Assembly: GCA_022651245.1 (NCBI GenBank)
Contig: JALCQM010000004.1
Coordinates: 26,308-90,307, forward strand
Source of the DNA: Lactobacillus sp.
GTDB lineage: Bacteria; Bacillota; Bacilli; Lactobacillales; Lactobacillaceae
DNA length: 64,000 nucleotides
Direction of reading: 5' to 3'
The notes under the pieces are model-generated. The model worked only from the letters and a program-made list of their open reading frames with translations, ran no database searches and was not told where the DNA came from. How positions within the stretch are numbered: position 1 is the first letter of the stretch; every line of letters starts with the position of its first letter. Shown one piece after another: positions 1,158 to 62,250 of the stretch. The position numbers and the translations under genes were made by a program.

Positions 1158-1457
1158 GAGGTCGGGTAGGCCAAAAAGGTCTGTGTAGATCAGCCGGGCC
1201 TGGCGTCGAGTCCAGCCCTCGTTTTTGATGATCTTGAGCTCCCGCGTGTCGGAGCAGTCGCCTGAGTCGAACTCAAAGTGCAACGCCTCGTGGATAGCGG
1301 TCTCCAGCCAGTCGATGTCTGGCTGCAGGGTGTTTATGTACACTTCATGGCCCTGGATGTGGCCGTGGTAGTGCGGACTTTTCACCTCTACTCCGTAAAA
1401 CGTTAGCTGCGGGTACATGTCTTCGATTCGTTCCAAGTCGGTCATAGACAGCGCCAC
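1152..1457 (-). CDS. ImmA/IrrE-type metallopeptidase
   Basis: 101 aa with HEALHFEF (HExxH) motif; adjacent to CI-like repressor. Confidence 0.8.
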   Translation of the reverse strand: MALSMTDLERIEDMYPQLTFYGVEVKSPHYHGHIQGHEVYINTLQPDIDWLETAIHEALHFEFDSGDCSDTRELKIIKNEGWTRRQARLIYTDLFGLPDLK

Positions 1458-13478: not shown

Positions 13479-13916
13479 TTGGGGTTGTTTCCAGAAATTG
13501 ATGAAAAAGCGAGCTGTGCTAAAGCTCGGCGCGAGCTCAAGAAGTATCGGCACTACGCTCGGATGGCGGGCCGTCCTTTGGCTGACCTTAAGTCGCCCTC
13601 TGTGGACGGGATGCCTAAGGCAAAGTCCTTTCAAAATGGCGTCGAAGCGTCACTTGTCGAACGGCTCGATAAGGTGATGGACGCAGAGGCCCATCTTGGG
13701 GTGATCGACAACGCCCTCGCCTTGTGCAAGTACCAAAGCAGGTGGGTGCTGTACTTTTCCTACTGCACGCCTGAAGACCTGGCACTGTGGCAAGTAGCCG
13801 AGCGAGCCGGTGCTGGCAACGTGGGTACTTTGAAGCGGCAAAAGGCGGCGGCACTACTTGAGTTCGCTGAAGCCTATCCAAACCACGAGCTGATCGTACT
13901 GAAAGATGAGACTTAG
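13479..13916 (+). CDS. ArpU-family phage late transcription regulator
   Basis: 145 aa (TTG start); ARRELKKYRHYARMAG... and C-terminal sigma4-like region; position before late genes. Confidence 0.82.
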   Translation: MGLFPEIDEKASCAKARRELKKYRHYARMAGRPLADLKSPSVDGMPKAKSFQNGVEASLVERLDKVMDAEAHLGVIDNALALCKYQSRWVLYFSYCTPEDLALWQVAERAGAGNVGTLKRQKAAALLEFAEAYPNHELIVLKDET

Positions 13917-13983
13917 ATGCTACTTTTGAGTGACTAATTTGCAACTAAGAAGGAACCACATGAATGGGATTCACTGTTATATT

Positions 13984-14418
13984 GATAGAGTCAGATAGCT
14001 AGGAGCAAAGCTATCCGGTCGGCGGGCTGCCGAAGGCTCGTCGATCTTTGCCTCGGTGTGTGGGCAGGGCCAAAACAAATCTACTTAAGGATGTGTGGAA
14101 AGCCTCTTATCCTCTATAGCACACAGGCTAGCAGTGGGCCGAACCGCTGTTAGTCATACGTCTCTGCGTGTGGACGCAAAAAAATCAAGGGAGGTAATTC
14201 CCCTTGAAAATCTGATGAGCGCGCAAACCGGCGGTCGGGTCAAACTGCCGCCGGCTATTGCCTCGGCACGTGGGCAACTCATACACAAGCAAAAATGTGG
14301 ATGACTCCTCCTTTAGATACAGCGTGCACAGTTTTATCCTTGCGGCCGCCGGCGGAAAACGGTCAGGCCCCAGCATATACATGGCGTCGGAGCGTAGGCT
14401 TGCGGCGCTTTTATTTTG
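13984..14418 (+). ncRNA. Candidate structured phage ncRNA with two copies of a hairpin + UUGCCUCGG-N3-GUGGGCA module
   Basis: No convincing ORF; extended -10 TGtTATATT (13975-13983); stems 14020-14027/14036-14043, 14128-14137/14144-14153, 14165-14169/14174-14178, 14185-14191/14201-14207, 14228-14234/14248-14254; duplicated 19-mer at 14048-14066 and 14258-14276; terminator at 3' end. Confidence 0.6.
14384..14418 (+). terminator. Rho-independent-like terminator
   Basis: GCGTCG-g-AGC-gtag-GCT-tg-CGGCGC followed by TTTTATTTT. Confidence 0.6.
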
Positions 14419-14438
14419 CAAACAATCGGGTGATTCCC

Positions 14439-14630
14439 ATGAGCATGATAAAAACTAGCTGCGGATACATGACCTACCAAGAGTGGGCGATGATCTGCCG
14501 CATTAGTAAGCAAGAAGAGAGGGAGCATAAGTATGGACGTCAACGAGATGCTCGGAGTGCGAGAGTCATATCAAGCACCAAGCAAGCTGATGGAGATTCT
14601 GCGCGACGAAGGGAAGACGGACAACTCTGA
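14439..14630 (+). CDS. Small phage protein
   Basis: MSMIKTSCGYMTYQEWAMICRISKQEEREHKYGRQ...; between ncRNA region and HNH gene; overlaps next ORF. Confidence 0.35.
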   Translation: MSMIKTSCGYMTYQEWAMICRISKQEEREHKYGRQRDARSARVISSTKQADGDSARRREDGQL

Positions 14631-14643
14631 TGCCAAAGGTTAG
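14534..14643 (+). CDS. Small phage protein (36 aa)
   Basis: MDVNEMLGVRESYQAPSKLMEILRDEGKTDNSDAKG; RBS gagggagcataagt. Confidence 0.5.
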
Positions 14644-15157
14644 ACGATGCCGTGCCACTGGCTGTCATGCTATGTGTGAGGTACCGCACTGGTACTGTGC
14701 TAAGCACATAGACCAAGAGGATGCCTACCTTGAGACCAGACAGCGATGGGCACGAGGACATGAGGCCAGTTACCAGCATAAGTACAACCGAGTCAACCGT
14801 AACCGAAGTGAGGACAAGAGAGAGCAGTATGCTTTCTACAAGTCGAGGGAGTGGCAGTCGTTGAGGCGAGCAGTGCTCGACCGCGACAACCATCTTGACC
14901 AGTATGCTTTTAAAGCTGGCCTGATTGTCCAGGCTACCACGGTGGACCATATAGTCCCTATAGAAGTGGCACCAGAGCTGCGCGACGATCCCGACAATCT
15001 CATCGCTTGCACGAGCCGGACGAACCGAATCAAGACGCAGTGGGAGCAGGATTATTACGGAACCGGCGCCGCAAATCGTTTGACTGGCGCGCCGTGGATT
15101 CGCAAAGCTGCTGACCTGCCAATAAATTTTGATCCCCCCGCCCCGTTGCGAGAGTAG
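14630..15157 (+). CDS. HNH endonuclease (terminase-associated)
   Basis: KSREWQSLRRAVLDRDNHLDQYAFKAGLIVQATTVDHIVPIEVAPELRDDPDNLIACTSRTNRIK; adjacent to terS. Confidence 0.88.
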   Translation: MPKVRRCRATGCHAMCEVPHWYCAKHIDQEDAYLETRQRWARGHEASYQHKYNRVNRNRSEDKREQYAFYKSREWQSLRRAVLDRDNHLDQYAFKAGLIVQATTVDHIVPIEVAPELRDDPDNLIACTSRTNRIKTQWEQDYYGTGAANRLTGAPWIRKAADLPINFDPPAPLRE

Positions 15158-15244: not shown

Positions 15245-15733
15245 GTGATTCCGGTGGTCAAAAAGTCATGGAACGAACAAAACGGGGGTCATCTCTCTTA
15301 TGACCCGCCAGCACACCTGGGAGCGATCGCGGCCGCAATGTGGCGCAAGATCGTTCCCTTTTTAGAAGTCCGAGGGAGCGACGTCCAGCGCATCGATCAG
15401 AACCTGGTCGAGATGTACTGCGCCCAATATGAGATCTACCGCAAGGCCTATCAGTCGATACGAGACGAAGGTGCCCAGGTGACGATCACGAAGTCGGTGC
15501 AGAACTCACGCGGCGAGATCATCGGCACTGACATGGTCGCAATCCGGCGCAATCCGGCTACGTCAATCTTCAACGACGCGGTGAAGCAACTCACGGCCAT
15601 AGGAGGCCAGCTGGGGCTGTCTCCGAAGTCCCGGGCAGAACTAGCCGACATGGTCGGTGACGGCTCTGACACGGACGGTTTGGACGTAGCAAAGGCACTC
15701 AGTCGCTTTATGGGAAAAGAGGCTAAGCAATGA
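15245..15733 (+). CDS. terS: Terminase small subunit (P27-like)
   Basis: 162 aa upstream of TerL; AAAMWRKIVPFLEVRGSDVQRIDQNLVEMYCAQYEIYRKA. Confidence 0.88.
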   Translation: MIPVVKKSWNEQNGGHLSYDPPAHLGAIAAAMWRKIVPFLEVRGSDVQRIDQNLVEMYCAQYEIYRKAYQSIRDEGAQVTITKSVQNSRGEIIGTDMVAIRRNPATSIFNDAVKQLTAIGGQLGLSPKSRAELADMVGDGSDTDGLDVAKALSRFMGKEAKQ

Positions 15734-17616
15734 CTGAAGAGATCATTGACCTGACCGAATCTCACGACGTCATTGGCGCCTATCGCAAGCGTGACTATCG
15801 GGCTATCCGTCAGAAGTACACCGATCCCGGTACTACCTACGCCTTTAGAGTCCTAGACGGCAAGATTATGGCCGGCTACATGATGCGGCTGGCCTGCTTC
15901 CGACATGTGCAAGATTTACAACGTGCCGAAGCCGAGCAAGCATACTTCCCATTCCGGTACGACCTAGACAAGACTAGCGCCATTCTGACTTTTGCGGCGA
16001 TCTGCCCAGATGTCGATACTGGCGAACCTTCCAAACTGATGCTGTGGCAGAAATTCACTCTGTCTCAGCTTTTTGGTTGGGTCACTTTAGACGGCCAGAA
16101 GCGTTTCACGCGTGCCGACCTTAGCGTTGGCCGTGGCCAGGGTAAAACCTACCTGATGGGCATCTACATGTCATACAGCTTCCTGATTGAACCGTTGAGC
16201 CTGTCCAATCAGGACTTCCTAGTGTCGTCTATCAATTTCAAGCAGACCAACAAGCTCTTTGGATACATTGGCACGATGCTCAAACAAATTTGTGCTAACG
16301 AGCCCTTCAAGACACTGGCGAAGCAAGCGGGGCTTATACCACTGCTGCACGATCAGTATGTCCAGCGCACCGCCAACAATGTGTTGCGGGAGATCCCACT
16401 AGAATCCGGACAGTATGACTCGTATCACTTTACAACAGCCGTCTTTGATGAAGTCGGTGAAGTCAAGAGCCGTGATCGGATCAGCAAGATCACTACTGGC
16501 CAGGTCAAGGTACCAAATCACCAATACATCCAGATCTCAACAGCGTATCCTGATCCGTCAGTGCCGTTCCACGACGACCAAAAGATGATGCAGGAAGTCA
16601 TGGAGCGTGACAGTGATCGGGCCAACGACCGGCGCTTGTGTCTGGTGTGGGCGCAGGACAGCCTGAACGAGACTTATAAGCCAGATACTTGGGTAAAGTC
16701 CAACCCGCTGCTCGATCTCAAATCGCAGTACACTACGCTTTTTGGCGGTTTGATGGACTTGCGAGACCAGATGCTGGCAACTGGCAAGGTCGCGGACTTC
16801 CAAAACAAGAACCTCAACATGTGGCTGCAAGAGAAGCAGAACAGCTTCCTCAAGCTAAGCGATATTGAACGATCTGTCGTAAAAGATTTCTCCATCCGCG
16901 GTCGCCAGGTGTATGTGGGCTTTGACTACTCGATGTTTAGCGACAACACTGCCATCGCTTTTATCTATCCATATCGCCGCGCGGATGGCACCAAGCACTG
17001 GCACGTCGAGCAGCACAGTTTCATCCCGTGGGAACGGGCTGGGTCAATCGAGGCCAAAGAGAACCAAGACGGCATCGCCTATCGGCAGTACCCGGAGTTT
17101 TGCACGATCACCAGTCACCCGCAAGGCCTAATCAATGACGACCAGGTCTACCAGTGGCTCATGGACTACGTCGAGGACAACGGCCTTGAGGTGGTCTTTT
17201 TTGGTTACGACGCTTGGGGTGCCACCAAGGCAATCAAGCAGATGGAGCTCAACACTGCCTGGCCACTTGAACCGATCCGACAACGGACTAGTGAACTTAA
17301 AGACCCGACGAAGTGGCTACAAGAGTGCTTTGTTGAGGGCACAATTGATCGTCCAGACGACCCGATCATGGCTAAAGCGTTGATGAACGCGCAGCTTTAC
17401 GAGGATAAGATCGGCATCCAAGTCGATAAGGCCGCTGCTACGTACAAGATTGACGTGGTTGACGCCGTCATCGACAGCGGATACCAGGCGATGTATCACT
17501 TCGAGGACTACGCCGACATCAATGATAAGTCACAGCAGGTGGATCGGATGACGCAAGAGCAAGTCAAAGAATGGTTCTTAAGCCAGCATGGAGGAGGTGA
17601 ATCGGATGATCTTTAA
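15730..17616 (+). CDS. terL: Terminase large subunit
   Basis: 628 aa; Walker A-like VGRGQGKTYLMGIYMSY, FDEVGEV, nuclease YVGFDYSMFSDNTAIAFI. Confidence 0.97.
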   Translation: MTEEIIDLTESHDVIGAYRKRDYRAIRQKYTDPGTTYAFRVLDGKIMAGYMMRLACFRHVQDLQRAEAEQAYFPFRYDLDKTSAILTFAAICPDVDTGEPSKLMLWQKFTLSQLFGWVTLDGQKRFTRADLSVGRGQGKTYLMGIYMSYSFLIEPLSLSNQDFLVSSINFKQTNKLFGYIGTMLKQICANEPFKTLAKQAGLIPLLHDQYVQRTANNVLREIPLESGQYDSYHFTTAVFDEVGEVKSRDRISKITTGQVKVPNHQYIQISTAYPDPSVPFHDDQKMMQEVMERDSDRANDRRLCLVWAQDSLNETYKPDTWVKSNPLLDLKSQYTTLFGGLMDLRDQMLATGKVADFQNKNLNMWLQEKQNSFLKLSDIERSVVKDFSIRGRQVYVGFDYSMFSDNTAIAFIYPYRRADGTKHWHVEQHSFIPWERAGSIEAKENQDGIAYRQYPEFCTITSHPQGLINDDQVYQWLMDYVEDNGLEVVFFGYDAWGATKAIKQMELNTAWPLEPIRQRTSELKDPTKWLQECFVEGTIDRPDDPIMAKALMNAQLYEDKIGIQVDKAAATYKIDVVDAVIDSGYQAMYHFEDYADINDKSQQVDRMTQEQVKEWFLSQHGGGESDDL

Positions 17617-62165: not shown

Positions 62166-62250
62166 GCGGGTATGGCGGAATTGGTAGACGCGCAAGATTA
62201 AGGATCTTGTGGGCATTTAGCCCGTGAAGGTTCGAGTCCTTTTACCCGCA
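62166..62250 (+). tRNA. tRNA-Leu (anticodon AAG)
   Basis: GCGGGTATGGCGGAATTGGTAGACGCGCAAGATTAAGGATCTTGTGGGC...GGTTCGAGTCCTTTTACCCGCA; anticodon loop TTAAGGA. Confidence 0.95.

Follow-up and report, generated by a model that had tools for sequence, protein, structure and literature searches.

Tandem pseudoknot modules in a structured RNA between arpU and the DNA-packaging genes of a Lacticaseibacillus prophage

In the window (the whole stretch of 64,000 nucleotides analysed here), we identified a prophage RNA locus of a Lacticaseibacillus genome, which is flanked by the late-gene switch arpU on one side and by DNA-packaging genes on the other. Judged from its sequence and that of its relatives, the region 13984-14417 is a non-coding RNA structured on the + strand, comprising three tandem hairpin-pseudoknot modules, a 3' domain, and a terminator. 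A module of this kind occupies the same place in related prophages, and we are highly confident that the RNA structure is genuine and that the RNA represents a new family, seen in Lacticaseibacillus prophages immediately 3' of ArpU. The best overall explanation appears to be a late-phase phage RNA of a new family, which is probably discrete and acts in trans via repeated binding modules (probability roughly 0.5). The features of the locus are given below in order of position.

13479 to 13916, + strand: arpU, late transcriptional activator directly upstream of the RNA (PHROG 248 'transcriptional activator', E 5.1e-31)
13919 to 13991, + strand: conserved late-promoter block with an extended -10, TGTTATATT, at 13975-13983; 79-81% identity to the equivalent site in three other prophages
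13984 to 14417, + strand: whole structured RNA of ~430 nt with a strand-specific fold; 5' end deduced from the -10
13994 to 14015, + strand: predicted 5' hairpin GATAGCT/AGCTATC whose loop contains AGGAG (MFE and centroid folds)
14017 to 14125, + strand: module 1 (covariance model 82.7 bits, and covariation); P0 14019-14028/14035-14044, P1 14049-14052/14063-14066, pseudoknot 14056-14061/14119-14124
14126 to 14225, + strand: module 2 (covariance model match 14126-14231, 49 bits, zero broken model pairs); P0 14128-14137/14144-14153, P1 14159-14162/14173-14176, P2 14186-14206, pseudoknot 14166-14171/14219-14224
14226 to 14328, + strand: module 3 (covariance model 85.4 bits, and covariation); P0 14228-14237/14245-14254, P1 14259-14262/14273-14276, pseudoknot 14266-14271/14322-14327
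14305 to 14316, + strand: CTCCTCCTTTAG, mostly unpaired, resembling the anti-Shine-Dalgarno tail of 16S rRNA
14331 to 14369, + strand: 3' domain, conserved in four other prophages
14371 to 14380, + strand: near-invariant CAGCATATAC after the 3' domain, as seen in an alignment (A5)
14383 to 14417, + strand: terminator-like hairpin with U-rich tail, TTTTATTTT, ~20 nt upstream of the next start codon
14439 to 14630, + strand: small first late gene of 63 aa; family in 14 of 30 genomes and general to pre-terminase regions of the genus
14630 to 15157, + strand: HNH endonuclease gene (PHROG 144, E 2.8e-36)
15245 to 17616, + strand: terS (15245-15733) and terL (15730-17616), Pfam PF05119 and PF20441/PF03354

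A gap of ~520 bp without a recognisable gene separates arpU from the 63-aa gene, which is followed by the HNH, terS, and terL genes, and none of the ORFs in the 13984-14417 region had a Pfam or PHROGs match. These results agree with the first-pass annotation of this DNA, which had seen no convincing ORF here and had rightly placed both the extended -10 and the terminator-like hairpin with its tail. A -10-like TATNATGNTA is recurrent immediately 3' of arpU in many prophages, and the closest relatives of the window ArpU are found in L. manihotivorans, baoqingensis, zhaodongensis, absianus, parakribbianus, yichunensis, mingshuiensis, and daqingensis. When folded as the + strand, 13984-14420 was more stable than every one of 100 dinucleotide-preserving shuffles (z -4.1, as against -0.5 for the - strand), and a second, shorter shuffle run over a slightly different span gave z values of -2.8 (+) and -1.05 (-). 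The 63-aa protein, which had no match in Pfam or PADLOC, was considered as a partner of the RNA and rejected, its family being a general pre-terminase gene.

Each module contains P0, a hairpin of 10 bp, and the short hairpin P1, whose loop forms a 6-bp pseudoknot with a strand located ~50 nt further downstream. In most copies, an additional hairpin (P2), which is not alignable, lies between P1 and this strand. The P0 loops have a common GYCRRA-like motif (GCCGAA, GUCAAA, GCCAAA, and GUCAGA). The modules are ~100-110 nt long, and the best stretch common to them is a 19-nt element that is 84% identical between 14048-14066 and 14258-14276. This repeated element had been recognised at the same positions in the first-pass annotation, which had proposed a duplicated folded module around it; the internal repetition of a folded module is now backed by covariation, with three copies instead of two. 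Three hairpins that had been described as lying between the two copies (14128-14153, 14165-14178, and 14185-14207) are real but not separate, since the covariance model assigns them to module 2. The inner GC-rich hairpins reported for both repeats are P0, all 10 pairs of which show compensatory changes. The stems drawn as enclosing them (GAGCAAAG/CUUUGCCUC and GAG..GCAA/UUGCCUC) are unsupported by relatives. Their bases are largely part of P1 (UGCC/GGCA) or of the pseudoknot strand that precedes it, and the helices that covary are these. On the minus strand, the P2 hairpin of module 2 together with T7 (14207-14185) reads as a terminator for antisense transcription.

The first alignment contained the two repeats of the first-pass annotation and five similarly placed prophage regions and was made with MAFFT, which is blind to structure. 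It revealed two helices, namely P0 and the pseudoknot of the P1 loop with a downstream strand AGC-RYR-CA, and RNAalifold predicted the same two helices unaided from the alignment alone. Pair counting gave double compensatory changes in 11 of 15 pairs and a covariation of 0.74, compared with 0.35±0.05 for shuffled and at most 0.17 for slid partners. Considering that the pseudoknot had been spotted by eye ahead of pair counting, copies from outside the sample provide a fairer test. The covariance model used for searches included P0 and P1 and left the pseudoknot out. This model, whose E-values are rough (short calibration), recovered further copies including that of G013 (L066, E 3e-12) and module 2, the latter being outside its training set. 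All six pseudoknot pairs are intact in both G013 and module 2, with the new combinations GCGUGU/GCACGC and GCGUGU/GCGCGC.

Across ten modules, 95% of the cells in P0 and the pseudoknot are paired and double compensatory changes are present in 13 of 16 pairs (10/10 in P0 and 3/6 in the pseudoknot), with a covariation of 0.76 versus 0.39±0.04 for shuffled and at most 0.16 for slid partners; these shuffle controls leave kinship in, and the modules of G002, G007a, and G007b, as well as window modules 1 and 3, are non-independent. The P1 stems also contain compensatory changes and, with their strands aligned by hand, pair in 49 of 52 cells. The first-pass annotation had made its proposal depend on homologues with compensatory changes in the stems, and both P0 and the pseudoknot covary in the homologues found here. 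Moreover, G-U pairs outnumber A-C mismatches by 24 to 2, which indicates that the conserved entity is the + strand RNA and neither the DNA nor an antisense transcript.

Downstream of the modules, the 3' domain forms a hairpin (14344-14369) with an outer stem GGCC/GGCC and an inner stem GCCG/CGGU, and the outer stem covaries (GGCC/GGCC versus GACG/CGUC). The AAAAC loop of this hairpin can pair with GUUUU at 14331-14335, and a second pseudoknot may thus be possible, although this candidate helix barely varies. The 7-bp stem of the terminator is paired in all five prophages aligned, with two compensated pairs. As for the anti-Shine-Dalgarno-like segment, CTCCTCCTTT has an unpaired probability of 0.5-0.98.

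Strong matches to the module were detected in nine prophages from seven genomes, only within Lacticaseibacillus and downstream of the late activator. The carriers are the window's own prophage (three copies), two prophages of absianus, two of manihotivorans, and one each of baoqingensis, parakribbianus, zhaodongensis, and G013, and most of these relatives have a single module. In absianus (L018) and G013, the gene ahead of the RNA is likewise a PHROG 248 activator, and the second absianus copy (L002/L077) is preceded by another regulatory ORF. In the model search of 401 Lactobacillaceae and 398 Lactobacillales genomes, only weak matches were obtained outside Lacticaseibacillus; the best of them (L068, approximate E 7e-4) combines P0- and P2-like parts with a minimal tRNA-like element and has no pseudoknot. 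A search for homologues between arpU and the packaging genes, which the first-pass annotation had suggested, was productive in prophages of this genus. The region had no blastn match among 50,697 phage records. Prophages of daqingensis, yichunensis, and mingshuiensis keep the 3' domain, but a UUCG-type short hairpin replaces P1 and the pseudoknot is absent, implying that the pseudoknot is not essential to the role of the leader there. In the yichunensis and mingshuiensis prophages (L007 and L008), the 3' domain is separated from the first late gene by extra sequence, which apparently contains genes on the opposite strand. A 15-nt P0-loop pattern had 47 matches in viral contigs, which we took as chance given the length of the pattern and the size of the collection.

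Most relatives of ArpU in Lacticaseibacillus have hundreds of non-coding bases 3' of the activator gene, and the contents of most of these leaders are unrelated to the window module. Three counts, all inflated by kinship (about a dozen leaders are independent), describe them: 24 of 25 leaders end in a terminator-like hairpin (2.1 expected); 17 of 28 contain tRNA-like T arms, 22 in total (0.08 expected), of which 21 have a matching acceptor stem, with none in antisense; and CCTCC, the anti-Shine-Dalgarno core, occurs 21 times (6.2±2.3 expected) in 18 of 25 leaders. CCTCC is thus about threefold over-represented in these 25 leaders, whereas GGAGG is under-represented (6 versus 11.4 expected). 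Many of the tRNA-like elements have 22-36 nt from acceptor to T arm, which is too short for both remaining arms. No tRNA-like element (acceptor stem plus T arm) was found in the window RNA. The slot is also present in phages A2, J-1, PL-1, Lc-Nu, phiAT3, Lrm1, BH1, and CL2, where it is unannotated, overlapped by short hypothetical ORFs, or labelled tRNA-OTHER. Those of A2, J-1, PL-1, and Lc-Nu hold different structured RNAs, many of which include armless tRNA-like minihelices. Our literature search for expression of the slot RNA found no report.

How might the window RNA work? Its position suggests that it would be the first product of late transcription, made from an ArpU-activated promoter. 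Most transcripts may end at the terminator ahead of the first late gene and so yield a compact, abundant RNA in the lytic phase; a discrete RNA is favoured by the terminators lying ahead of the first late gene in 24 of the 25 leaders (related ones included). Three copies with diverged sequence and constant fold suggest that the fold is what is bound, and the repeated modules with GYCRRA-like P0 loops could act in trans by offering several equivalent places to bind to a single factor of the host or the phage, either a protein or the translation machinery. Several sites would not be obligatory, since most relatives have a single module. Taken separately, the function as a trans-acting binding platform is given slightly less than an even chance.

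The constant placement of the RNA at the start of the late operon suits a cis role equally well, and the main rival is a cis-acting leader of this operon, in which the nascent RNA would act on RNA polymerase, as the put RNA of phage HK022 does, or on the terminator and would set the level of transcription entering the packaging and morphogenesis genes. We consider this a serious but distinctly less likely possibility. It would account for the fixed 5' position, the common strand, and the terminator downstream, and put RNAs are indeed short two-hairpin elements just past promoters that suppress termination in cis (PMC9378689). The window RNA shares with them the placement of structured elements, which follow a phage promoter closely and have terminators downstream. 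However, put RNA is ~70 nt long with two stem-loops and belongs to early genes (PMC9378689), whereas the window RNA has three ~100-nt pseudoknot modules and belongs to the late operon. In addition, unrelated structures (pseudoknot modules and tRNA-like minihelices) fill the slot across phages, which would be odd for one conserved mechanism, and a terminator scan gave no strong sign of many terminators within the late operon.

A more general proposal, which we regard as rather unlikely, is that the late operon of Lacticaseibacillus phages begins with a cassette slot into which structured RNAs acting in trans are placed, pseudoknot modules in the window and armless tRNA mimics elsewhere. Such RNAs would be made at the late switch and target the tRNA, ribosomes, or defence machinery of the host; the RNA with three modules would be one effector among them, and its unpaired anti-Shine-Dalgarno-like CCUCC might offer one route to ribosomes or mRNAs.

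A decoy or counter-defence role seems improbable. Here, the pseudoknots, and in relatives the tRNA-like minihelices, would imitate RNAs that defence proteins of the host bind or cleave, after the model of type III toxin-antitoxin antitoxins or of tRNAs cut by nucleases. The antitoxin RNAs of type III systems are short, nearly identical repeats, unlike the diverged modules of ~100 nt in the window, most relatives of which are single-copy. A type III system was itself rejected, as no ToxN-like endoribonuclease gene, nor any other adjacent toxin, was found beside the repeats; the 63-aa gene without a match comes next, and then HNH. The likeness to such RNAs (ToxI, CptI, and TenpI) lies in the tandem pseudoknotted repeats (PMC5449768). 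The exchange of slot contents among related phages, as an arms race would predict, and the abundance of T arms (22 spread over 17 of the 28 leaders against 0.08 expected, kinship inflating the count) also fit a decoy, but the downstream protein had no match in Pfam or PADLOC and no candidate target emerged.

The remaining explanations are very unlikely. A site that works as DNA (cos, pac, or operators for the activator) with incidental folding is suggested by the nearby HNH and terS genes, but the 24:2 G-U/A-C polarity and the strand-specific fold point to selection on RNA; a cos site was rejected, since in the A2 and J-1 records the equivalent slot is ~4-5 kb away from the ends. Even more remote is a functionless, decayed tRNA array or coding region: odd tRNA-like elements do occur at the same place in relatives, but the window region lacks them, and compensatory changes across diverged copies mean a maintained structure.

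Equally remote is a divergent GOLLD or ROOL RNA, which the first-pass annotation had raised by proposing a related or new phage RNA. The second half of that proposal is retained, and kinship with either family is not: a cmscan search of the region with the full set of 4227 Rfam families, GOLLD and ROOL among them, gave zero matches at E<=5, and the GOLLD and ROOL models matched nothing in 30 Lacticaseibacillus genomes, a result to be read with the silence of 14 control genomes, which leaves absence unproven by these searches alone. Both families lie near tRNAs, and the GOLLD linker sometimes houses tRNAs (PMC12286853), which recalls the tRNA-like elements in relatives of the window RNA. The likeness to GOLLD (RF02032) and ROOL (RF03087) is one of setting only, namely a prophage, multiple pseudoknots, and tRNA association in relatives. 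The window RNA differs from GOLLD in its three tandem modules instead of one large fold and in being about half as long (~430 nt versus more than 800 nt in many GOLLD RNAs), and from ROOL in size and architecture.

With this RNA, one more family joins the few large phage RNAs whose function is still to be found. Well-studied Lacticaseibacillus phages (A2, J-1, PL-1, Lc-Nu, and phiAT3) have a structured-RNA slot heading their late genes, where current annotation shows either nothing or hypothetical proteins, and the covariation-backed fold provides a defined RNA with testable base pairs in tractable food-grade bacteria.

Several minor observations were made along the way. Arrays of tRNA-like elements that retain an intact acceptor stem and T arm, with odd or missing D/anticodon arms, head the late operon, for example, in L025, L029, L066, A2 (L055), and J-1 (L056). 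Phage regions outside the genus likewise contain minimal tRNA-like minihelices (L098 and L107 from other Lactobacillaceae genera, and L068 at 1709-1749), in two of which the acceptor strand is only 10 nt and 0 nt away from the T arm. By eye, the late leader of L066 (~1240-1370, reverse strand) contains a tRNA-Ile-like element with an apparent D-loop insertion of ~45 nt. Two TGA codons interrupt the arpU-like reading frame in L022. In the window itself, the sole Rfam match was a standard tRNA gene at 62166-62250, which might be the prophage attachment site.
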